Counted from the first letter of the stretch, positions 30,079 through 44,511 are shown. The stretch: DNA of 64,000 bases from Thiohalophilus sp. (GCF_034522235.1 NZ_JAXHLN010000003.1:496001-560000), one strand, 5' to 3'. A program made the numbers and translations. The notes: generated by a model not told the origin, from the sequence alone.

Positions 30079-30378
30079 ATGGATGGGTTGGAATTTACAT
30101 GGGATGAAAGGAAGAATCTCAACAATCAGGAGAAGCACTCGGTTTCCTTTGGAGAAGCGCAAACTGTGTTCTATGACGAATTTGCCCGCTTAATCCATGA
30201 CCCCGAACATTCGGAAGATGAAGATCGGTTTATCCTCCTGGGGTTTAGCAACCAAATTCGAATGCTCGTCGTTTGCCACTGCTACAGGGAAGAAGAGCAA
30301 CTCATACGAATTATTTCAGCCCGAAAGGCCACCAAATCCGAGCAAAAAATGTATGAAGGTTTTCGCGATGAAAGATAA
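30079..30378 (+). CDS. brnT: BrnT family toxin (type II toxin-antitoxin)
   Basis: 99 residues of the BrnT RNase-toxin family, RelE-like fold. Family features: EFTWDERKNLNNQEKHSVSF, FYDEFARLIHDPEHSEDEDRF, and the C-terminal IRIISARKATKSEQKMYE holding the basic residues used for RNA cleavage. It is the first gene of the pair, with the antitoxin starting inside its 3' end, the standard brnT-brnA order. A nearby TTG at 30088 is an alternative start. Low GC compared with neighbours and position between attC-like sites indicate a cassette gene. Confidence 0.9.
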   Translation: MDGLEFTWDERKNLNNQEKHSVSFGEAQTVFYDEFARLIHDPEHSEDEDRFILLGFSNQIRMLVVCHCYREEEQLIRIISARKATKSEQKMYEGFRDER

Positions 30379-30583: not shown

Positions 30584-30604
30584 CAGGGAAATTCACCTGC
30601 AAAT

Positions 30605-31677
30605 GGGGTGGTGACAAACGAGAAGCATTTGCATTTGCATTAGCATTTGTCACCGACCCCACTCCTGTGGAAGAGGCTGTTCCAAATCTACTCCCAACCA
30701 TCCTCGCCCGGATATCAGTTTTTTGTGGGAGCGACTTGTGGGAGGCGCTTTCAGCGGCGACTCTTCGTCGGAGCACCTTACTTATCAAAATGTTCGCCCT
30801 GCGGGCGAGCTGAATCTTGAAAGCGGGCTCTCGCGCCCGCGCGGCGAGTGACTTTTCTTACTCGTCTAAGAAAAGTCACCAAAAGAAGGACGCCCGAAGA
30901 CTCGCCGGTTCAGCCATTTACAATGGCTGAACCGGTTCCCTGCGCTTCTCGCTCCAGTCGGAGCTCGCCAGAAGGGCCATCCTGGCCCTCTGGCGAGTGC
31001 GCACGTGTCTCATAGAACCCCTTCGGGTTTCATTATGTTGTCTCGCAGAACCCTCCGGGTTCATTGCGAGTACCCTACGCTTCCAGCGTCAGGGCAACCC
31101 TACCCATCTCCGATGGGTCAGGGCACCCTGCCGCCACCCTTCGGGCTGTTCCTCCTTCCACTGCGATGCTCGGCGTCGTCTGACGGGATGAAAAAAAATA
31201 CTCGCGATAAGGTGCGTCCAATACATCGTCAACCATTTCTGTATGCCCAGGGTAAACACAGGGGTTGCAGAGTTTGCAGAGAAAATCATCCTCAACCTCG
31301 TCCCTCGGCACTGTGTTTATGATGCTCGGCGTCGTCTCACGGGATGAAAAAAATACTCGCGATAAGGTGCGTCCAATACATCGTCAATCATTTCTGTATG
31401 CCCAGGGTAAACACAGGGGTTGCAGAGTTTGCAGAGAAAATCATCCTCAACCTCGTCCCTCGTCCCTCGTCCCTCGTCCCTCGTCCCTCGTCCCTCGTCC
31501 CTCGTCCCTCGTCCCTCGTCCCTCGTCCCTCGGCACTGTGTTTATGATGCTCGGCGTCGTCTCACGGGGCTCAAATCACGCTAGCCAGATCTAAGGGATA
31601 ACCCTGATGTCAGACGATGTCGCCCGGATGCGCCTCGAAAAACCCGGAATCAGTTGCTAATATTTAAAGAGAATTGA
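30605..31677. repeat. structured repeat element, copy 2
   Basis: No gene. It begins with GGGGTGGTGACAAACGAGAA, whose inverse TTTGTCACCGACCCC follows at 30646-30660. Then come a perfect 13-bp hairpin (30848-30860/30867-30879), a perfect 14-bp hairpin (30905-30918/30922-30935), further CCCTTCGGG-type hairpins near 31020-31070, and two tandem units of about 155 bp that start at 31166 and 31322. Each unit ends in a variable CTCGTCC run. From 30661 to about 31330 it appears identical to 34076-34745, 3,415 bp away. Confidence 0.9.
31452..31528. repeat. perfect tandem array of 11 CTCGTCC heptamers
   Basis: Eleven uninterrupted copies of the 7-bp unit ctcgtcc (77 bp) lie inside the second ~155-bp tandem unit of copy 2. 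The equivalent position in other units of the window carries 1, 1, 5 and 2 copies, so the array length varies by whole heptamers. Confidence 0.97.
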
Positions 31678-31753
31678 ATTTAACAATAATTTTGATAGAC
31701 AGAATCCGCCTGAATCCCGAAAAATACAGATTCTGTCTAAATCACTGTTATGT
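31678..31753 (+). other. integron attC-like recombination site 2
   Basis: Starts ATTTAAC and ends GTTATGT, 76 bp. The inner arms AGACAGAATC and GATTCTGTCT form a perfect 10-bp stem; outer parts TTTAACAATAATTTTGAT and AAATCACTGTTATG pair imperfectly with extra-helical bases on one side. The first 24 bases are the same as in sites 1 and 3. The next cassette begins within the GTT. Confidence 0.7.
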
Positions 31754-32206: not shown

Positions 32207-32280
32207 CCAGCCCATCCGGCCGACGCCAAAAAACGGAGCGGGTGGTGGGCAACGTTAGTTTATCTATAGCCGGAGATACC

Positions 32281-33960
32281 ATGAAGATAGATGACATCTT
32301 TGACTGGATTGAAAAGCACCGCTTCCAGGTAAAACTGTTTCTTATACCGACCATCATTTTCATGATTGCAGTGGTATATATGTTTGTGATTGTGACGGGT
32401 GGAACCAAGAATGTGTTTTCCCACACGATGTATTTACCGATTGCGTTGGCCGCTTTCGCTTTTGGGGCAAAGGGTGGGGTACTGACCGCGCTGGTGGGTG
32501 GCCTGTTGCTTGGGCCCTTCATGCCGATCGATACCCTCACCAGCGAACAGCAGGACACCATAAGCTGGCTGTACCGAATCAGTTATTTTGTGCTTATCGG
32601 TTTTCTTATGGGGGCAACCAGAGACATTGCTGGCATCTATCTGAACAGAATAAAATGGAATGCCAGTCATGACAGTATGACTGGGCTACCCAACACCTTT
32701 GCGTTGGAAAGGGTTATCAAGGAACTACTGGATTCAAACGGAGATGAGAGCAAAACCTATTATCTACTGATCGCCCGGCTGGGAAATCAGGCACAGATTG
32801 AAGCCAGCTTTGGCGTACAGTGCGTTAACGGCATTATTGTGCAGCTGGCGGATACCATTCGGAATCAATTACCGGATCCTGCTGAAGTTTACCGGGTCGG
32901 TACCGAGGGCCTGGGCTTTGTGCGTCCAGCGGAAGATGAGTACGCTGTAAAAAATCTGGGGAAAAAGCTGGGGCACACGTTCACTAAACCCGTTGAGTTC
33001 GACAAAATTAAGATTCATGCCGATGTTTATCAGGGAATTGTTGCTCTGGATGGTAAAGCCAGGGATCCACAATTGTACATCCTGAGAGCCAACCATGCCA
33101 CGCGTGAAGCGAGCAACAACAGGCAGCGGAATGGGATACTGACAGGCATCGATGACGAGATCAAGATAAAGGAAAATCTGAAAGTTCTCGGCGAGTTGAG
33201 CGATGCGTTGGAATGCGGCCAGGTGTTCATGCATTATCAACCCAAGGTAGTAACGAGCACGGGGGTCATTGATGGGGTTGAAGCCCTGATGCGCTGGCAG
33301 CACCCTGTTCGCGGCAATATTCCACCAGGCAACTTCATTCCTTATGCCGAGAACAGCACACTCATTGACCAGATCACCTATTTTGCCCTTAATCAGTCAC
33401 TCGCGCAGTTGGCAGAATGGGATAAAAATGGCCTGAAGAATATTCATGTGGCAGTGAATATCTCAATCAGAAACCTGTTGAATCCGGATTTTTTCAAGAC
33501 CGTTATGCAGCTTCTGGAAACGCACGGTGTGAATGCGGAAAGGCTGGAATTAGAGGTCACAGAAAGTTCGGTCGTAGAGGATATGGAAACCGCTATCTTG
33601 GAGTTAGCCAAGCTCAGCAAAGCCAATATTATTATATCGATCGATGATTTTGGAACCGGGTATTCATCTTTGCAATATCTGGGGAAAATGCCGGTATCAA
33701 TTATCAAAATCGATCAAAGCTTCATTACGTCATTACTAAACAAGCCAGGTTCGCAAAAGATAGTGAGCGCTGCAATTGGGCTGGCGCATAATCTTGGATT
33801 AAAAGTTGTTGCGGAAGGAGTCGAAAACCGAGACACCTATGATTTTCTGCTGGATGCCGGTTGTGACCTGATTCAAGGCTATTATGTTAGTCGTCCGTTA
33901 CAGGCCAGTGAATTGGAGAAAACCTGCAAGGCCTCAAAAGGGCGGCCAGTTCATGTGTAA
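32281..33960 (+). CDS. membrane protein with degenerate GGDEF and intact EAL domain
   Basis: 559 residues. Three to four N-terminal membrane helices (about 17-40, 48-80, 95-115) form a MASE-like sensor, followed by a GGDEF-type domain (about 125-290). There the active loop reads GTEGLGF, so no diguanylate cyclase activity is expected. The EAL domain (about 300-550) keeps GVEALMRWQHP, NISIRNL, ESSVVED, IDDFGTGYSS and VAEGVE, consistent with a working cyclic-di-GMP phosphodiesterase. CGGAG lies upstream of the ATG. Base composition is clearly more AT-rich than the core genes. At 1.7 kb it is large for a cassette gene. It lies between attC-like sites 2 and 3. Confidence 0.9.
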   Translation: MKIDDIFDWIEKHRFQVKLFLIPTIIFMIAVVYMFVIVTGGTKNVFSHTMYLPIALAAFAFGAKGGVLTALVGGLLLGPFMPIDTLTSEQQDTISWLYRISYFVLIGFLMGATRDIAGIYLNRIKWNASHDSMTGLPNTFALERVIKELLDSNGDESKTYYLLIARLGNQAQIEASFGVQCVNGIIVQLADTIRNQLPDPAEVYRVGTEGLGFVRPAEDEYAVKNLGKKLGHTFTKPVEFDKIKIHADVYQGIVALDGKARDPQLYILRANHATREASNNRQRNGILTGIDDEIKIKENLKVLGELSDALECGQVFMHYQPKVVTSTGVIDGVEALMRWQHPVRGNIPPGNFIPYAENSTLIDQITYFALNQSLAQLAEWDKNGLKNIHVAVNISIRNLLNPDFFKTVMQLLETHGVNAERLELEVTESSVVEDMETAILELAKLSKANIIISIDDFGTGYSSLQYLGKMPVSIIKIDQSFITSLLNKPGSQKIVSAAIGLAHNLGLKVVAEGVENRDTYDFLLDAGCDLIQGYYVSRPLQASELEKTCKASKGRPVHV

Positions 33961-34024
33961 TGCCTTGTCATGTTCGCATAAATATCCCGTAATCAGGGAT
34001 AAAGCTAACATTCACATGTGAAAC

Positions 34025-35212
34025 GGGGTCGGTGAAAAATAAGAAGCATTTGCATTAGCATTTGTCACCGACCCCACTCCTGTGGAAGAGGCTGTTCCAA
34101 ATCTACTCCCAACCATCCTCGCCCGGATATCAGTTTTTTGTGGGAGCGACTTGTGGGAGGCGCTTTCAGCGGCGACTCTTCGTCGGAGCACCTTACTTAT
34201 CAAAATGTTCGCCCTGCGGGCGAGCTGAATCTTGAAAGCGGGCTCTCGCGCCCGCGCGGCGAGTGACTTTTCTTACTCGTCTAAGAAAAGTCACCAAAAG
34301 AAGGACGCCCGAAGACTCGCCGGTTCAGCCATTTACAATGGCTGAACCGGTTCCCTGCGCTTCTCGCTCCAGTCGGAGCTCGCCAGAAGGGCCATCCTGG
34401 CCCTCTGGCGAGTGCGCACGTGTCTCATAGAACCCCTTCGGGTTTCATTATGTTGTCTCGCAGAACCCTCCGGGTTCATTGCGAGTACCCTACGCTTCCA
34501 GCGTCAGGGCAACCCTACCCATCTCCGATGGGTCAGGGCACCCTGCCGCCACCCTTCGGGCTGTTCCTCCTTCCACTGCGATGCTCGGCGTCGTCTGACG
34601 GGATGAAAAAAAATACTCGCGATAAGGTGCGTCCAATACATCGTCAACCATTTCTGTATGCCCAGGGTAAACACAGGGGTTGCAGAGTTTGCAGAGAAAA
34701 TCATCCTCAACCTCGTCCCTCGGCACTGTGTTTATGATGCTCGGCGTCGTCTCACGGGATGAAAAAAATACTCGCGATAAGGTGCGTCCAATACATCGTC
34801 AATCATTTCTGTATGCCCAGGGTAAACACAGGGGTTGCAGAGTTTGCAGAGAAAATCATCCTCAACCTCGTCCCTCGTCCCTCGTCCCTCGTCCCTCGTC
34901 CCTCGGCACTGTGTTTATGATGCTCGGCGTCGTCTCACGGGATGAAAAAAATACTCGCGATAAGGTGCGTCCAATACATCGTCAACCATTTCTGTATGCC
35001 CAGGGTAAACACAGGGGTTGCAGAGTTTGCAGAGAAAATCATCCTCAACCTCGTCCCTCGTCCCTCGGCACTGTGTTTATGATGCTCGGCGTCGTCTCAC
35101 GGGGCTCAAATCACGCTAGCCAGATCTAAGGGATAACCCTGATGTCAGACGATGTCGCCCGGATGCGCCTCGAAAAACCCGGAATCAGTTGCTAATATTT
35201 AAAGAGAATTGA
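34025..35212. repeat. structured repeat element, copy 3
   Basis: Near-identical to copy 2 at an offset of 3,415 bp; short reading frames within it translate identically. It differs in the first 50 bp and in holding three instead of two ~155-bp tandem units (starts at 34581, 34737, 34920, with the truncated next unit at 35082). Heptamer runs at the unit ends have 1, 5 (34867-34901) and 2 copies. The hairpins fall at 34263-34294 and 34320-34350. No gene. Confidence 0.9.
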
Positions 35213-35262
35213 ATTTAACAATAATTTTGATAGGCAGACATCTGTCTAATACACTGTTAGAT
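35213..35262 (+). other. integron attC-like recombination site 3
   Basis: 50-bp site from ATTTAAC to GTTAGAT, fully matching RYYYAAC and GTTRRRY. The inner AGGCAGA/TCTGTCT arms and outer TTTAACA.../...TGTTAGA arms form an asymmetric hairpin. The terminal GTTAGATG is the same core end as I remember for the aadA7 attC. It is shorter than sites 1 and 2 because the inner loop is missing. Confidence 0.75.
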
Positions 35263-35687: not shown

Positions 35688-37196
35688 ATGGCAACAAAGC
35701 AAGACACTGAATCGGGCAAGACCGGCCTGCCGGATATCCGTGACCACACTGCGACTCCCCGCATCGACTCGCCGGTCTCCGCGACCGGCATTGAAGGCTT
35801 CGACTTCATCATGCGCGGCGGCCTGCTCGCCGCCCGCCCCACCCTGCTGCGCGGCGGACCCGGCACCGGCAAGACGGTCATCAGCCTGAGTTTTCTGTGT
35901 CATGGCCTGGACACCGGCGAACCCGGCGTGATGGTCACCTTCGATGAATCGCCGCAGGCCCTGATCCGGCACGCCGATGCTTTGGGCCTGAACCTGAGCG
36001 CGCATATCGAGGCCGGCCGGGCACGCATTCTGGACATGCGCCCCGATCACGATGAAATAATGACCGGCGAATCGCTGGAATTGAGCGCCATCCTGGCCCG
36101 CATCGGCCATGCCATTGAACAGACCGGGGCCCGGAGACTGGTGATCGACGCCATCGACGGCCTGGAAGTCGCCTTCAGCGGCGCCGGGGACAGCCTGCAG
36201 TTTGAATTGCGCCGCGTCTTCGACTGGATCCGCGAGAGCGAAACCACAACCGTGATTACCATCGGTGAGTACGGTGACTTCAGTCAACGCCACGGTATCG
36301 AGGACTACATCGCCGACTGCGTCATCGCCCTCAAGCAGGAGATCACCGAACGCCTCATGATCCGCCTGCTGCGGGTGGTCAAGCGCCGCGGCGGCGGCCA
36401 CGGCACCAGTGAGTTCCCCTATCTCATCGACCGTGAAGGTATCTTCGTCCTGCCGCTGACCGGTTCGCGCCTGCACGCCAGTTCCACCACGGAGCGGATA
36501 TCCACCGGCGTCGCCGGCCTTGACGACATGCTCGCCGGGGAAGGCATTTACCGGGGCGTGACGGCCATGTATTCCGGCCAGTCCGGCACCGGCAAGACCA
36601 CATTCGCCGCTTCCTTCGCCCGTGCCGCCTGCGAGCGCGGCGAGGATGTCCTGTACCTCTCCTTCGAGGAAGGGGACGATGAACTCATGCGCAATCAGCA
36701 CAGCGTCGGCATCGACCTGAGAGCTCATCTCGACACACCCCGGGGCAGGGGGCGGCTGGTGCTGGAGCCCATGCTGGCGGCGGAGACGGGCTGGGAGGAG
36801 CATTTGTTGCGGATACTGCGAGCGGTACGTCAGCACCGGCCCGCCGTCGTGGTTCTGGACCCGCTCAGCGCCCTGAGCCACAAGCTGGCCGGCACCAACA
36901 GCAAGGCCATGGTGCTGCGCCTGCTGTCGCTGCTGAAGGTCGAGGGTGTGACGACGGTGGCCACGGAACTGCTGACGGACAACAGCGGTGGTGAGAGCAC
37001 GCTCAACATCTCCTCGGCCATCGACATGTGGATCAAACTGCGCCGCGAGGAACGCGACTATACGCTGCACCGGCTGCTGACAGTCGTCAAATCGCGCGGC
37101 ATGCCCACCGCGGATTACGTCAACGAATACACTCTCAGCGACCAGGGAGTAATCACCCGTGGCCGTCCGGAAGCAACGGGGGGTAATGAACAATGA
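35688..37196 (+). CDS. kaiC: KaiC-like double-domain RecA ATPase/kinase
   Basis: 502 residues with tandem KaiC domains. CI: Walker A GGPGTGKT (56-63), VTFDESPQ (DE where cyanobacterial KaiC has EE), LVIDAIDGLE. CII: Walker A SGQSGTGKT (296-304), YLSFEEGDDE with the paired Glu (327-328), VVVLDPLSAL. The phospho-acceptor region STLNISSAIDMW aligns with the cyanobacterial Ser431-Thr432 segment and has Ser-Ser (37011-37016). Slightly shorter than S. elongatus KaiC (519). ATG at 35688 is preferred over 35682 because GGAG lies six bases upstream of it. kaiB starts inside its stop. No kaiA is present. Confidence 0.92.
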   Translation: MATKQDTESGKTGLPDIRDHTATPRIDSPVSATGIEGFDFIMRGGLLAARPTLLRGGPGTGKTVISLSFLCHGLDTGEPGVMVTFDESPQALIRHADALGLNLSAHIEAGRARILDMRPDHDEIMTGESLELSAILARIGHAIEQTGARRLVIDAIDGLEVAFSGAGDSLQFELRRVFDWIRESETTTVITIGEYGDFSQRHGIEDYIADCVIALKQEITERLMIRLLRVVKRRGGGHGTSEFPYLIDREGIFVLPLTGSRLHASSTTERISTGVAGLDDMLAGEGIYRGVTAMYSGQSGTGKTTFAASFARAACERGEDVLYLSFEEGDDELMRNQHSVGIDLRAHLDTPRGRGRLVLEPMLAAETGWEEHLLRILRAVRQHRPAVVVLDPLSALSHKLAGTNSKAMVLRLLSLLKVEGVTTVATELLTDNSGGESTLNISSAIDMWIKLRREERDYTLHRLLTVVKSRGMPTADYVNEYTLSDQGVITRGRPEATGGNEQ

Positions 37197-37474
37197 CGAC
37201 CATCGTTCTGCGTCTCTACATCGCCGGCAAGACAGCCACGGCCGAACGCGCCATCGAAAATCTACGCAGGATCATCGCCGAACTGGAAGAAACCGATCAA
37301 CAGGTGGATGTGGAAGTCGTCGACATCCTGGAACAGCCGCAACTGGCCGAGGACGAGCGCATCCTGGCCACGCCCGTGGTCATCAAGAAGCTGCCGGTGC
37401 CGTTACGGCGCATTGTCGGCGACCTCTCGGAGCTGGACAAGGTGCTCATCGGCCTCGATCTCAAGGAACATTGA
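37193..37474 (+). CDS. kaiB: KaiB-like protein
   Basis: 93 residues, thioredoxin-like KaiB fold: LRLYIAGKTATAERAIENLR, VDVEVVDILEQPQLAEDERI, ILATPVVIKKLPVPLRRIVG DLS. These blocks match cyanobacterial KaiB (102 residues) apart from the shorter tail. KaiB binds the KaiC CI ring after fold switching. ATGA overlap with kaiC, and its TGA overlaps the next ATG by one base, so the stoichiometry is coupled. Confidence 0.92.
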   Translation: MTTIVLRLYIAGKTATAERAIENLRRIIAELEETDQQVDVEVVDILEQPQLAEDERILATPVVIKKLPVPLRRIVGDLSELDKVLIGLDLKEH

Positions 37475-38664
37475 TGCACCCGGACGAGGCGGCATTCCGG
37501 TCTCTGGTCGAACAGTCCGGCGACACCGTTCTCCTTCTCGATCCCGCCGGTACTGTTGCTTATGCCAATCCCGCCGCCGAGCAACTTTTCGGCCGTCCCC
37601 TGGCCAATCTGATTGGAGAGGACTTCGGCGGTATCTCCACGGCCGAGGAACAGTCCGATATCTATATCCCCCATCCCAAAAGGGGAAACGTGGCGACCAA
37701 TGCCCGCAGCACGACCATCCGGCTTGACGGTATACCCTATACCGCCGTCTATCTGCGCGATATCAGCGAGCGCGCCCAGGCGGAGGAACGGCTGCGGCAA
37801 TCCTCCGTCGCCCTGGACGCCATCGATCAGGGCCTGATGATCACCCGGCCGGATACCACCATCGTCGCCGTCAACCCGGCCTTCACCACCATCACCGGTT
37901 ACACGGAACAGGAGGTTCTGGGCGGTACCCCGGACCTGCTGCTGACGGGGGAGCAGGAAGATGAAGAGAGCTATACGGAGATGAGACGCACCCTGGAGCG
38001 CGAGGGACACTGGACGGGCGTGCTGCGGCAGCGCCGCAAGAACGGCGAGATCTACCATGAATGGCTGAACGTCAGCCCCGTCCGCCGCGATAACGGCGAT
38101 TTGATGTATTACGTCGCTATCTTTTCGGACATGACCGACATCAACAAGCTGCGACAGCTTGCCCACCACGACTATCTCACCGGTCTCTTCAACCGTGCCG
38201 CCCTGCAACAGCATCTGGATGAGGAAATGCGTCGTATTGCGCGCTATGGTGGCGTGTTTTCCCTCATCATGTTCGATCTCGATCACTTCAAGGCGGTCAA
38301 CGACAACTACGGACACGACACGGGAGACCGGGTTCTGCAGCAGGTGGCCGAGTTGACCCTGAACGAAGTACGTGATACCGATGTAATGGCGCGCTGGGGC
38401 GGCGAGGAATTCATGATCCTGCTGCCCGCGACGGACGGCGACCGGGCATGGATCCTGGCCGAACGTATACGAAAGCGAACCGCCCGCACTTCGTTTTTGG
38501 AGTCGGGATACATTACTATCAGTCTGGGTGTGGCCGAAATGCATGCGGGCGAACCACAGCAGGATTCACTCATACGCGTGGACCAGGCCCTCTACCGGGC
38601 CAAGGAAACCCGCAACCGCTCTGAAATGGCCCGGAAACCCGGGCCCCGGGAAGCTTCCAGATGA
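37474..38664 (+). CDS. PAS-PAS-GGDEF diguanylate cyclase in the kai operon
   Basis: 396 residues, no membrane segment. PAS 1 (about 8-100, LVEQSGDTVLLLDPAGTVAY ... YLRDISER), PAS 2 (about 110-222, with TGYTEQEVLGGTP and PAC-like GEIYHEWLNVSPVRR), then GGDEF (about 228-390). The active site is RWGGEEF (309-313), with inhibitory I-site RDTD (300-303) exactly five residues before it. An active, product-inhibited cyclic-di-GMP synthase is expected. The longer upstream in-frame start lies over kaiB and is rejected. Confidence 0.92.
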   Translation: MHPDEAAFRSLVEQSGDTVLLLDPAGTVAYANPAAEQLFGRPLANLIGEDFGGISTAEEQSDIYIPHPKRGNVATNARSTTIRLDGIPYTAVYLRDISERAQAEERLRQSSVALDAIDQGLMITRPDTTIVAVNPAFTTITGYTEQEVLGGTPDLLLTGEQEDEESYTEMRRTLEREGHWTGVLRQRRKNGEIYHEWLNVSPVRRDNGDLMYYVAIFSDMTDINKLRQLAHHDYLTGLFNRAALQQHLDEEMRRIARYGGVFSLIMFDLDHFKAVNDNYGHDTGDRVLQQVAELTLNEVRDTDVMARWGGEEFMILLPATDGDRAWILAERIRKRTARTSFLESGYITISLGVAEMHAGEPQQDSLIRVDQALYRAKETRNRSEMARKPGPREASR

Positions 38665-41252
38665 AACCGGGCGCCGCAACTTTCCGGCATCTGGTGGAAG
38701 ATGCCAGCGATACCGTGCTCGTGCTCGACGCCGACGGCATCATCGTCTATGCCAACCCCGCTGCTGAATTATTATTCGGACGGCCTGTTGCTGAATTGCC
38801 GGGGCAATCATTCGGACACGTCATCACGACCGACAATCCCGCCGAAATCCAGATCATCCATCCCCGGCGGGGCACGATCACCGCCGATGTCCGCAGTTCC
38901 CGGACCACTTTGTCGAAGCAAGTCTACGATATTGTTTATCTGCGCGACGTCACCGAGCGCAAGCTTAATGAACTGGCTCTGCTGGAAACGTCGCAAAGAT
39001 TGCGAGAACGGATCAAGGAACAGACCTGCGTCCGTACGGTTGCCGAAATACTGCTTAATGCCGAAGATGCGCTGGAGGAAATGCTGCAGAGCGTGGCCGA
39101 TGTTCTTCCTCCCGCCTGGCAGTATCCGGAAATCGCGGCGGCAAGAATCACCTTTGACGGCCGCGCCTATACCAGCAAGGGCTTTCGCCAATCCGCCTGG
39201 CAACAGCGGGAAGATATCATCGTCAGCGGCCGTAACGCGGGCACGGTCGAAATCTTCTATCTCGATGAACGTCCCGAAGCGGATGAAGGCCCGTTTCTCA
39301 AGGAAGAACGGGAGCTCCTGAAGCAGGTCGCCCTTAAAGTCGGCGAGGCCATTGAACGGAAACGGGCGAAAGAGGCATTGCTCAGGCTCAACCGTGCGCT
39401 GCGGTTGCAAAGCGCCGGGAATTCGGAGCTCATCCATGCAAAAGAGGAATCCGCGTTGCTTGATGCGATCTGCCGGTTGTGCGTGGAGTTGGGCGGTTAT
39501 CGCATGGCCTGGGTGGGGTTCGCGCAACACAACGAGGCAAAGAGCGTGCAGCCGGTGGCGCAGGCCGGGTTTGAAGCCGGCTATCTGGAAAGTGTCCGCA
39601 TCAGCTGGTCGGAAGAAGGGCGCGGCCTCGGACCCACCGGGCGGGCGATCCGTACCGGTGAGCCTCAAATCAGCCAGAACATTCTCACTGATCCGAGCAT
39701 GACACCGTGGCGCGACGAGGCGTGTCGGCGCGGCTACCAGTCTTCAATCGCGCTGCCGCTCAAGGATTCGGCAGGTATTGCATTCGGGGCGCTGATGATT
39801 TATGCCAACGAACCGGACGCCTTCGATGACGAAGAACTTCGTTTATTGACGGAACTGGCCGGCGATCTTGCCTTCGGCATTGTCACCCTGCGCGCACAGG
39901 CACAACACAAACTCGCCGAGGAGCGCATCGAGTATCTCGCCTATTTCGATGAACTGACCGATCTGTCCAACAGTAACCGGCTGATGGAAACACTGAAGCG
40001 AACCGTCGATGCATTGCCTGCCGGGAAACAGTGCGCCCTCCTGACCCTGAACGTGACCCGCTTCGGCGAAATCCAGGCCGGCATCGGGGTGCGACAGGCG
40101 AACGAACTGCTGCGGCAGATCGCGAGTCGCCTCCGTGACGCCCTGCGTGAAGGCGAGATGCCGGCGCGGATCGGCGGCGACGAATTCGCGGTTTTACTGA
40201 GCGAAGGCGGCCTCGATAATGCGCGGGATTGTGTACGGCGTATCGAGCGGTTATTGGGCGAACCCTTCCAGCAGGCGGGTATCCCCATCAGCATCCAGAT
40301 GCGCGTCGGTGTGGCGCTGGCGCCCGATCACGGACTGGACCCCGAGGCCCTGATGCTGCGCAGCGCTATGGCGATGCGGCACGCAAAACGAAGCGGAACA
40401 GTATTTGAACTGTACAGCGGGCCGACGGAATCGGAAAGTCCGCGTTACCTGACGCTTATCTCGGAACTGCACACGGCCATCGTGGAAAACCAGTTCGTGC
40501 TGCATTACCAGCCCCGGGTGGATATCGGTACGGGCAGGATCTCCGGTGTCGAAGCACTGGTCCGCTGGCGGCATCCCGAACAGGGCTTGATGCCCCCGGC
40601 CGAATTCATCCCCATCGCGGAACAAACCGGGCTCATCGACCCGCTGACCTACCTGGTTCTGGATGCCGCCGTGCAGCAGTGCCGACTGTGGAGCGATCAG
40701 GGCTTCGACATGCCGGTGGCGGTGAATATTTCCGTGAACAGTCTCCACGATCCCGATTTCCTGGACCGGATCGACGCGATGCTGGACGCCTGGAAGGTCA
40801 ACCCGGAGTTATTGCAGCTGGAGATCACCGAATCCACGCTGATGAAGGAGCCGGCCAAGGTCGAGGAGCTGATCAACCGGCTCAAGGAACGCGGCATCGT
40901 GGTCGCCATCGATGACTTCGGTACCGGCTATTCGTCCCTGAGTTACGTGGCGAGCCTGCCCATTCATTCGCTGAAGATCGACCGTTCCTTCGTCATCCGG
41001 ATGCTGGAATCCCCGCGCACGCGCAGCGTGGTGGCGGCGACCATCTTCCTGGCGCACTCCCTCGGTATCAGGACCGTGGCCGAAGGCGTCGACGCCGGTG
41101 AACAGATCGAAGCGCTGCATGAGATGGGCTGCACGGAAATCCAGGGCTACTATTTCTCCCGGCCGGTTGAAGCGGAGCAACTGCGCCGCTGGGCGGAAGC
41201 CTTCTCGCTGGAGAATTATGCGTTAAAGCTCTCCGCCATGGAGAAAAGGTGA
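38661..41252 (+). CDS. PAS-GAF-GGDEF-EAL cyclic-di-GMP enzyme in the kai operon
   Basis: 863 residues, soluble. PAS (about 7-100) is closely similar to PAS 1 of the preceding protein. Then a helical plus sensor-like region (110-240), a GAF domain (about 245-410), GGDEF (about 420-585) with intact IGGDEFAVL (505-509) but REGE in place of the I-site RxxD, and EAL (about 595-850) with intact VEALVRWRHP (631-633), ITESTLMKE, IDDFGTGYSS, KIDRSF and VAEGVD. Both catalytic halves look functional, so direction of turnover may be switched by the sensors. 4-bp overlap with the previous gene; last of the operon. Confidence 0.92.
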   Translation: MKPGAATFRHLVEDASDTVLVLDADGIIVYANPAAELLFGRPVAELPGQSFGHVITTDNPAEIQIIHPRRGTITADVRSSRTTLSKQVYDIVYLRDVTERKLNELALLETSQRLRERIKEQTCVRTVAEILLNAEDALEEMLQSVADVLPPAWQYPEIAAARITFDGRAYTSKGFRQSAWQQREDIIVSGRNAGTVEIFYLDERPEADEGPFLKEERELLKQVALKVGEAIERKRAKEALLRLNRALRLQSAGNSELIHAKEESALLDAICRLCVELGGYRMAWVGFAQHNEAKSVQPVAQAGFEAGYLESVRISWSEEGRGLGPTGRAIRTGEPQISQNILTDPSMTPWRDEACRRGYQSSIALPLKDSAGIAFGALMIYANEPDAFDDEELRLLTELAGDLAFGIVTLRAQAQHKLAEERIEYLAYFDELTDLSNSNRLMETLKRTVDALPAGKQCALLTLNVTRFGEIQAGIGVRQANELLRQIASRLRDALREGEMPARIGGDEFAVLLSEGGLDNARDCVRRIERLLGEPFQQAGIPISIQMRVGVALAPDHGLDPEALMLRSAMAMRHAKRSGTVFELYSGPTESESPRYLTLISELHTAIVENQFVLHYQPRVDIGTGRISGVEALVRWRHPEQGLMPPAEFIPIAEQTGLIDPLTYLVLDAAVQQCRLWSDQGFDMPVAVNISVNSLHDPDFLDRIDAMLDAWKVNPELLQLEITESTLMKEPAKVEELINRLKERGIVVAIDDFGTGYSSLSYVASLPIHSLKIDRSFVIRMLESPRTRSVVAATIFLAHSLGIRTVAEGVDAGEQIEALHEMGCTEIQGYYFSRPVEAEQLRRWAEAFSLENYALKLSAMEKR

Positions 41253-42788: not shown

Positions 42789-44267
42789 TTATGGAGCAGG
42801 TTGAGTGACGTCATTTTGCTGCAAGGTTACTTCTGTCTGTGACAACAACCTGCCATCTACCGATGTCCCTGTTGCCAGAGTAATCGCTTTTTCGGCCAGG
42901 AGGATGCCTGAGACATGGGCGTCTGTGTTAATGATTGCACCAGAGGAACCGCCAATCTGCCAGAAGATGTTCTTGGCTTCCGCACCGCCTGCCAGAGTCA
43001 TGCTTGCACCGCTTGCAACAGTAAGGTCGCCCGCAACCTGCAATATCCAGACATCGTTGGGATCACCGTCGAATGTCATATCCGTGGAGATCAAAACACC
43101 CGTTCCCCATTTGTAAAGTCCTGGCTCAAGAGTCTGGCCACTGAGATCGCCGGCATGCAACTCGGTAAAATCAGGTGATGACCGCCCGGCGGCGTCTGTA
43201 TAGGCAATGCCCATATCAAGCACCGCATTGTCAACCCGTGTATTGGCCGCAGAATCACCCAGGAAGCAACTTGTATCACCGCTGCCTGTGTAGGCGTTAT
43301 CAGCTCCATAGATAGTGTCGGTCATTTCCGCACAAGTGACGTCGTCCATGGCGGCAGCAGTAATCGGACTGGCTCCGATATTCCCTGTGATAGGCGAAGG
43401 CGGTACATTAGTGATCCCTGTCTTGGTGAGGATCACGAAATCCCCGGCGGTTCCCAGCAGAACCGGGTCAGGGCCGGCTCTTTCGCTCGTGCCGGTTATA
43501 AAGCTCCACACATAGTCGCTTGCCAGTGCGTTGGGGGGGACGGCCGTGTCAGTCACGCCAGTTGTCACAGTTGCAGTGTAGTCAGTGTCGGTGTTGAGAT
43601 TGTTCGCTGGCTGCAATTTCGCGGTAGTGCCGGTAGCATTAAGGCTGACTGTTCCCTCAACCATCGCTGTCAGATCCGAGCTGGGCGCCAGCATGAATGT
43701 ATCGGTGTTGACGCTTGTAGGATCCATGTTTTCAGAGAAGGTTACGCTAACCTTGCTATTAATTGCGATATCCGTCGAAGCATCGGCCGGATTTGTCGAA
43801 ATGACTTCTGGTGCTGTGGAGTCCGTCTCCGTTCCGGTGGTAAAGACCCATGTGTAATCGCTGTCCAGGGGAACACCGTTTGAACTTTCCGCTGCGGTGG
43901 TCACCGTGGCGGTGTATATTGTTTTCGATGTAAAATGACTGTTGGGGGTAAAGGTTGCGGTATTGGTTTCAGCATCCAGCGTTACCGCGCCGATCAGAGC
44001 CGGTTCATCGGCACCGACTGCGGTAAAACTGACGTCATCGATGGTTGCCGGATCCATTGGCTCACTGAAAGTGGCGGTGATTTTGTGATTCACCGGCACA
44101 TCCGTTGCGTTATTAATAGGATAGGTGGAACTGACTGTAGGCGTGCTCCTGTCGAAAAAACTGCCATCGCCATCGTTATCGTTGCTGCAAGACGTTGCGG
44201 CAAAGGGCAGAAGCATTACTGCCGCCAAAATTAAACCTCGCCTGGGGAAATCTCTTGAAATGTTCAT
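42789..44267 (-). CDS. lipoprotein with two Ig-like (Big_5) domains and an ice-binding-type DUF3494 domain
   Basis: 492 residues. The signal is MNISRDFPRRGLILAAVMLL with lipobox AATSC. Two SbsA-type Ig repeats follow (about 40-145 and 150-255), each with a PxxxStxP...(A/V)(T/S)FSE(P/N)MDP start and DYTWVFTTG or DYVWSFITG end. The C-terminal 220 residues are a DUF3494 beta-helix: FVILTKTGITNVPPSPITGN, LEPGLYKWGTGVLISTDMTF, IFWQIGGSSGAIINTDAHV. DUF3494 proteins bind ice or act as adhesins. Surface or periplasmic side exposure is expected. Ice binding cannot be told from sequence; an adhesive role is equally likely. Confidence 0.88.
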   Translation of the reverse strand: MNISRDFPRRGLILAAVMLLPFAATSCSNDNDGDGSFFDRSTPTVSSTYPINNATDVPVNHKITATFSEPMDPATIDDVSFTAVGADEPALIGAVTLDAETNTATFTPNSHFTSKTIYTATVTTAAESSNGVPLDSDYTWVFTTGTETDSTAPEVISTNPADASTDIAINSKVSVTFSENMDPTSVNTDTFMLAPSSDLTAMVEGTVSLNATGTTAKLQPANNLNTDTDYTATVTTGVTDTAVPPNALASDYVWSFITGTSERAGPDPVLLGTAGDFVILTKTGITNVPPSPITGNIGASPITAAAMDDVTCAEMTDTIYGADNAYTGSGDTSCFLGDSAANTRVDNAVLDMGIAYTDAAGRSSPDFTELHAGDLSGQTLEPGLYKWGTGVLISTDMTFDGDPNDVWILQVAGDLTVASGASMTLAGGAEAKNIFWQIGGSSGAIINTDAHVSGILLAEKAITLATGTSVDGRLLSQTEVTLQQNDVTQPAP

Positions 44268-44511
44268 GCATTTATCTCCTGTGAAGTGCAGTACCGGGTA
44301 CGCTACCAGCAAGTATCAACACGGTCTGTTCGGTACCACGCTTATGAATAGGCAGTCGAACGTAAGGTTTATCGGCGTGCTCCATGCCGTGGACGAGGCG
44401 GCTGCAACAACTGAAATGCTCACCATTAAGCGCATGGAGTTCATGAAGGGAAGCTGCCTGTTTTGATGCCCTTTCGCCGCATGGGTCGAATGAAGTGGGC
44501 AAAGCCGTAGA

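Follow-up and report, generated by a model that had tools for sequence, protein, structure and literature searches.

A kaiC–kaiB operon encoding a diguanylate cyclase and a probable c-di-GMP phosphodiesterase with a common compact PAS domain in Thiohalophilus

Outside the cyanobacteria, almost all kaiC–kaiB clusters carry a gene for a histidine kinase or a GGDEF/EAL protein immediately downstream, as was described in PLoS One in 2011 (PMC3164672). R. palustris and Rhodobacter have the order kaiC–kaiB–PAS/histidine kinase (PMC4794148), and the Rhodobacter KaiBC pair is a KaiA-less hourglass governed by ATP/ADP (PMC10076222). Here, we describe a locus of Thiohalophilus sp. (GCF_034522235.1) that belongs to this context. 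It lies within a 64,000-nucleotide stretch (NZ_JAXHLN010000003.1:496001-560000; hereafter the window), where four plus-strand open reading frames at 35688-41252 encode KaiC, KaiB, a PAS-PAS-GGDEF protein and a PAS-GAF-GGDEF-EAL protein. The initial annotation of the window had taken a kai operon with a cyclase and a GGDEF-EAL protein to be undescribed; the 2011 study and 29 of the 96 loci surveyed here contradict this. The novelty is instead in the details, namely a cyclic di-GMP (c-di-GMP) output that is split between a cyclase and a phosphodiesterase, each carrying a short N-terminal PAS domain that we call PASk, and a KaiC that is tail-less. On balance, although not by a wide measure, we favor a reading in which a KaiBC timer or switch that senses ATP and works without KaiA passes its state through PASk to c-di-GMP turnover.

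In the clusters of the 2011 study (its Fig. 4 and Fig. S6), the downstream gene encodes a protein of the PAS-GGDEF-EAL type or a kinase, and the KaiC phosphosites are ST or SS, the latter being the case in the window KaiC; the window operon differs from them in dividing the output between two PASk-bearing enzymes, a canonical cyclase and a phosphodiesterase whose GGDEF domain looks dead. The Rhodobacter sphaeroides hourglass (PMC10076222; 8db3, 8dba, 8fwi, 8fwj) is likewise a KaiA-less pair with KaiC2-like SS sites, and its KaiC is the closest solved KaiC by sequence (8db3/8dba). However, that KaiC bears a coiled-coil extension missing from the window protein, and the Rhodobacter output gene encodes a PAS/histidine kinase rather than c-di-GMP enzymes. 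KaiB and KaiC homologues are also common to the window and the cyanobacterial KaiABC–SasA–RpaA system, but the window lacks KaiA, a SasA-type kinase and the KaiA-binding tail of KaiC. The loci of Halorhodospira abdelmalekii and Thioalkalivibrio (L052, L060) have the same operon order, PASk at the enzyme N terminus and tail-less KaiCs that are 51-57% identical to the window KaiC; they encode, in contrast to the two separate enzymes of the window, a single GGDEF-EAL protein, the GGDEF domain of which is less degenerate.

The operon and its four products

The four genes overlap by 4, 1 and 4 bases, as initially annotated. kaiC (35688..37196, 502 amino acids) and kaiB (37193..37474, 93 amino acids) overlap by four bases in an ATGA (37193-37196), kaiB and the cyclase gene (37474..38664, 396 amino acids) by one base in a TGATG (37472-37476), and the cyclase and phosphodiesterase genes (38661..41252, 863 amino acids) by four bases in a second ATGA (38661-38664). 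Each start codon has a Shine-Dalgarno-like purine run 5′ of it, and a GGAG is best spaced for the kaiC ATG at 35688. The cyclase start at 37474 was preferred over a longer, mechanically listed GTG frame because the protein that follows begins in a parallel way (MHPDEAAFRSLVE / MKPGAATFRHLVE). The absence of kaiA and of a sasA-type kinase, first noted for the window, holds for the whole genome (3.06 Mb, 3 contigs): KaiA (PF07688) has no match anywhere in it, and KaiB is its single KaiB-domain protein, so that there is no SasA-type kinase with a KaiB-like N-terminal domain at E<=1e-3. These whole-genome searches found no SasA- or KaiA-like partner encoded elsewhere. KaiC of the window type is also present in one copy.

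The window KaiC is a double-domain, KaiC2-like protein that matches PF06745 in two stretches (E 9e-86) and scores 462.8 bits against NF006799 (cut-off 408). Its Walker A motifs are intact in both CI and CII (GGPGTGKT and GQSGTGKT), and the catalytic glutamates are EE in CII and DE instead of EE in CI. The phosphosites are a Ser-Ser pair (NISSAID) aligned with S413/S414 of Rhodobacter KaiC; two serines at these positions are typical of KaiC2 proteins (PMC5520375), and the paired CII serines are predicted to be phosphorylatable. Past the last conserved segment there are 13 residues, compared with 35-42 from the same point in the sampled cyanobacterial KaiCs and at least 93 in coil-tailed KaiC2-like proteins (93 in the Ectothiorhodospira relatives). 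Thus, with its 13-residue tail, the window KaiC has neither the A-loop and KaiA-binding tail nor the Rhodobacter-type C-terminal coiled-coil extension of about 50 residues. In Rhodobacter, the coil holds the KaiC dodecamer, and coil-less KaiC is disassembled by KaiB binding (PMC10076222). In the phylogeny, a fully supported group holds the window KaiC together with KaiCs of Ectothiorhodospiraceae, and on this quick tree the tail was lost at least four times. Tail-less KaiCs are linked to an EAL protein in 6 of 10 cases, as against 8 of 80 for the others (raw Fisher p = 7e-4), an association that we keep as a lead, since the tree supplies no more than four independent contrasts, which are not enough for a test. 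KaiB matches PF07689 (E 4e-23, 81.2 bits, cut-off 27) and falls below the stricter NCBI equivalog cut-offs for circadian KaiB.

Pfam and NCBIfam confirm the domain orders PAS-PAS-GGDEF and PAS-GAF-GGDEF-EAL for the two enzymes. The cyclase has an intact PleD-like active site (GGEEF) as well as an RxxD inhibitory site (RDTD), with the metal- and GTP-binding residues, the GG(D/E)EF motif and the inhibitory site all present (FDLDHFKAVND, GHDTGD, RDTDVMARWGGEEF), and its model superimposes on PleD over 160 residues (Z 26.2, root-mean-square deviation 1.3). In the second enzyme, the GGDEF letters are kept, while the metal-binding aspartate and adjacent residues are lost: LNVTRFGEIQA replaces FDLDHFKAVND, GVRQAN replaces GHDTGD, and REGE replaces RxxD. 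Its EAL motifs are complete (EALVRW, NISVNSL, ITEST, DDFGTGYSSL, KIDRSF and QGYYFSRP). Because the GGDEF metal site is lost and the EAL motifs are intact, a dual activity of the second enzyme is improbable, which casts doubt on its initial description as a dual GGDEF-EAL protein. Judged by these motifs, the enzyme pair of the operon appears to consist of one cyclase and one phosphodiesterase.

A compact PAS domain common to both enzymes

PASk forms the N terminus of both enzymes (37495..37794 in the cyclase and 38682..38975 in the phosphodiesterase, both on the plus strand), and the two copies are 50% identical to each other. At about 100 residues, PASk is some 17 residues shorter than ordinary PAS matches (about 117). 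In AlphaFold2 models, it lacks the E and F helices that close the ligand pocket, whereas the canonical second PAS domain of the cyclase retains them; one alignment (A3), whose members differ from the window protein in domain order, was excluded from the modeling. Because the pocket-closing helices are missing, the models make contact with a protein a more likely role of PASk than sensing through a cofactor. Fold searches place PASk in an ordinary PAS relationship (LOV, FixL; Z 12-13), the aligned targets being longer. A cofactor was considered and rejected: the best solved-structure matches are heme PAS domains (DosP, FixL), and they cover the N-terminal half only. We found no description of PASk in the literature searched, although one may exist elsewhere.

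Within kai loci, PASk sits on three kinds of output protein, histidine kinases, cyclases and GGDEF-EAL proteins, and the loci come from Pseudomonadota, Nitrospirota, Planctomycetota, Thermodesulfobacteriota, Chloroflexota, Gemmatimonadota and other phyla. A PASk profile, of which both window domains are members, gives 124 and 117 bits for these two on the window genome and 42 for the next match. Across 369 genomes of the class, matches at about 70 bits or more occur at 17 places, of which 10 adjoin kai genes, 2 lie elsewhere in KaiB genomes and 5 are in genomes without KaiB. By genome, PASk is present in 7 of 20 with KaiB and 6 of 349 others (p = 6e-7), where G395, a genome whose sole KaiB match is weak and truncated, is placed among the others and 3 of the 7 positive KaiB genomes had supplied sequences to the profile. 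The best test of the association came from out-of-sample searches, which found a PASk-GGDEF-EAL protein in none of seven cyanobacterial genomes. They also showed that in Ectothiorhodospira mobilis, E. shaposhnikovii, E. haloalkaliphila and a further genome (G359), kaiCB has no enzyme neighbor and that each of these genomes encodes a PASk-GGDEF-EAL protein away from kaiCB. A supported PASk clade unites the window pair with the domains of Ectothiorhodospira species, G359, Halorhodospira and Thiocapsa.

PASk-like domains also occur on GGDEF-EAL proteins or large kinases at five places (L154-L158, in G132, G071, G215, G321 and G326) in genomes that have no KaiB match, with neither kaiC nor kaiB near the domain.

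Recurrence of the arrangement and competing explanations

To place the operon among its relatives, loci from a KaiB alignment scan of genome contigs (the best 80 of at least 554 confirmed relatives) were combined with loci from whole-genome searches of the class and phylum, and their neighbors were scored by profiles. A same-strand GGDEF/EAL gene lies within about 4.5 kb of kaiB at 29 of 96 non-cyanobacterial loci, the window included, and 8 of these 29 also have a histidine kinase; a kinase is found at 51 of the 96 loci (43 with a kinase only), and 24 have neither, although the loci are non-independent, some are near-duplicates, and contig ends truncate some of the last 24. At the 23 cyanobacterial loci, kaiB has neither a GGDEF/EAL gene nor a histidine kinase nearby. 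The counts mark the arrangement as a class and do not give its exact frequency; the arrangement is widespread rather than confined to this genome. Among the other genomes sampled from the order, the only one with KaiB is a congener (G038), the locus of which (L034) reads kaiC–kaiB–PAS-GGDEF-EAL. Its KaiC, which is likewise tail-less, belongs to a different clade and is 38% identical to the window KaiC; the locus is apparently a separate acquisition of a similar arrangement within one genus. Two variants were also observed. In a Thiocapsa metagenome-assembled genome (L053), kaiB overlaps a PASk-GGDEF-EAL gene, and kaiC was not found in the locus. Loci of the Magnetococcales type (L033, L068, L074 and others) contain two copies of kaiB or kaiC and a PASk-GGDEF gene beside at least one PASk-histidine kinase gene, giving several outputs per kai cluster.

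The initial annotation had suggested a Kai module with c-di-GMP turnover as its output. No other reading does better, and recurrence in other lineages and the retention of unlinked PASk enzymes in related genomes lend it partial support; the link between the two halves is one that we infer. Under this reading, the four genes would form one signaling unit, in which KaiC would act as a KaiA-independent, KaiC2-like ATPase and autokinase that cycles, as the ATP/ADP ratio and elapsed time dictate, between an unphosphorylated state and one phosphorylated at both serines. KaiB would bind the CI ring of one KaiC state and lead to dephosphorylation, such that the pair may work as an hourglass timer or energy switch and not as a free-running clock. 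The pocket-poor PASk domains would then dock state-dependently on KaiC or on the KaiB–KaiC complex, and the Kai state would set c-di-GMP synthesis by the PASk-PAS-GGDEF protein against breakdown by the PASk-GAF-GGDEF-EAL protein. The output appears to be exchangeable behind one linker domain, since PASk carries a histidine kinase in other lineages. This reading starts from the operon structure, the intact catalytic motifs, the loss of the second GGDEF site and the association of PASk with kai by position and by genome; from these, we infer binding, the phosphorylation cycle and the direction of control. We regard a functional partnership between the PASk enzymes and KaiBC as quite probable.

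Several observations weigh against the proposal. Most of the sequences behind the PASk profile are kai-linked, which biases it toward kai-linked copies, and 5 of the 17 strong matches are in genomes without KaiB. The kai-adjacent GGDEF-EAL protein of the congener falls below the PASk threshold, and therefore not every linked enzyme uses PASk. Finally, c-di-GMP added to the S. elongatus Kai oscillator in vitro caused no consistent change (PMC13001216), a result that concerns the opposite direction of control and another KaiC. This absence of a direct effect in S. elongatus also argues against the idea that the PAS/GAF proteins are an input, sensing signals and adjusting KaiC, as the receiver, through c-di-GMP or direct contact. 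We consider such an input unlikely, even though the canonical second PAS domain of the cyclase and the GAF domain of the phosphodiesterase are typical sensor domains, co-transcription is compatible with either direction, and the histidine kinase of the Rhodobacter kaiBC operon has been suggested to relay a redox signal to KaiBC (PMC5520375). The catalytic domains are C-terminal, as in ordinary effectors, and the constancy of PASk while histidine kinase, GGDEF and EAL domains vary reads more easily as one Kai contact with exchangeable outputs.

It is quite unlikely that the genes are merely co-expressed, the Kai proteins acting in stress or in energy homeostasis and sharing a promoter with the c-di-GMP enzymes because both respond to one condition, with no direct contact between them. 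KaiC2-type systems have been tied to the stress response in Legionella, in work cited in PMC5520375, and the PASk enzyme of Ectothiorhodospira lies outside the kai operon; yet shared regulation alone poorly explains why PASk recurs on kai-linked proteins with three kinds of output in many phyla, or why it is kept unlinked in kai genomes. Very improbable indeed is a chance or hitchhiking neighborhood, possibly on a mobile fragment, in a c-di-GMP-rich genome. With about 36 GGDEF proteins among an estimated 2,900 or so genes, one GGDEF neighbor has a chance of about 1% and is unremarkable, while an accidental pair of GGDEF genes in a row behind kaiB would arise about 1 time in 6,000. An IS66 transposase C-terminal remnant (PF13817, 35440-35620) ends shortly 5′ of kaiC, and among 39 other genomes sampled from the order, 38 lack KaiB, two observations that together hint at horizontal arrival or rearrangement. 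Against chance stand the overlapping starts and stops, the PASk association and, as stronger evidence than the in-genome odds, independent recurrence across lineages.

Genome setting and implications

Upstream of the operon, the window contains a direct repeat of about 1.2 kb (30600-31700 and 34020-35240), pieces of which are largely 98-100% identical; a GGDEF-EAL gene (32242-33960) lies between its two copies, and a related sequence (GGTGACAAACGAGAA) reappears at about 35446. Farther upstream, a toxin of the BrnT type, belonging to a type II toxin-antitoxin pair, is encoded at 30079-30378 and is followed by a possible antitoxin open reading frame, and downstream of the operon, 42789-44312 encodes a protein with Ig-like and ice-binding-like domains. 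Viral carriage of KaiB was dismissed, as viral contigs hold no relatives.

Outside the cyanobacteria, KaiA-less KaiBC pairs lack SasA and usually have no known partner through which to pass on their state. PASk, found on kai-linked proteins with different outputs, is a concrete candidate for docking, and as a candidate Kai contact domain it is the lead of highest value from this locus. Tentatively, and stopping somewhat short of calling it probable, we suggest that PASk is an unrecognized Kai-docking domain that plugs KaiBC timers into exchangeable outputs across several phyla, in a role like that of the KaiB-like domain of SasA; in the window, it would allow an opposed cyclase/phosphodiesterase pair to be driven from a tail-less KaiC. 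The operon thereby offers a minimal case, in which the two enzymes would act in opposite directions on c-di-GMP and the product is directly measurable.

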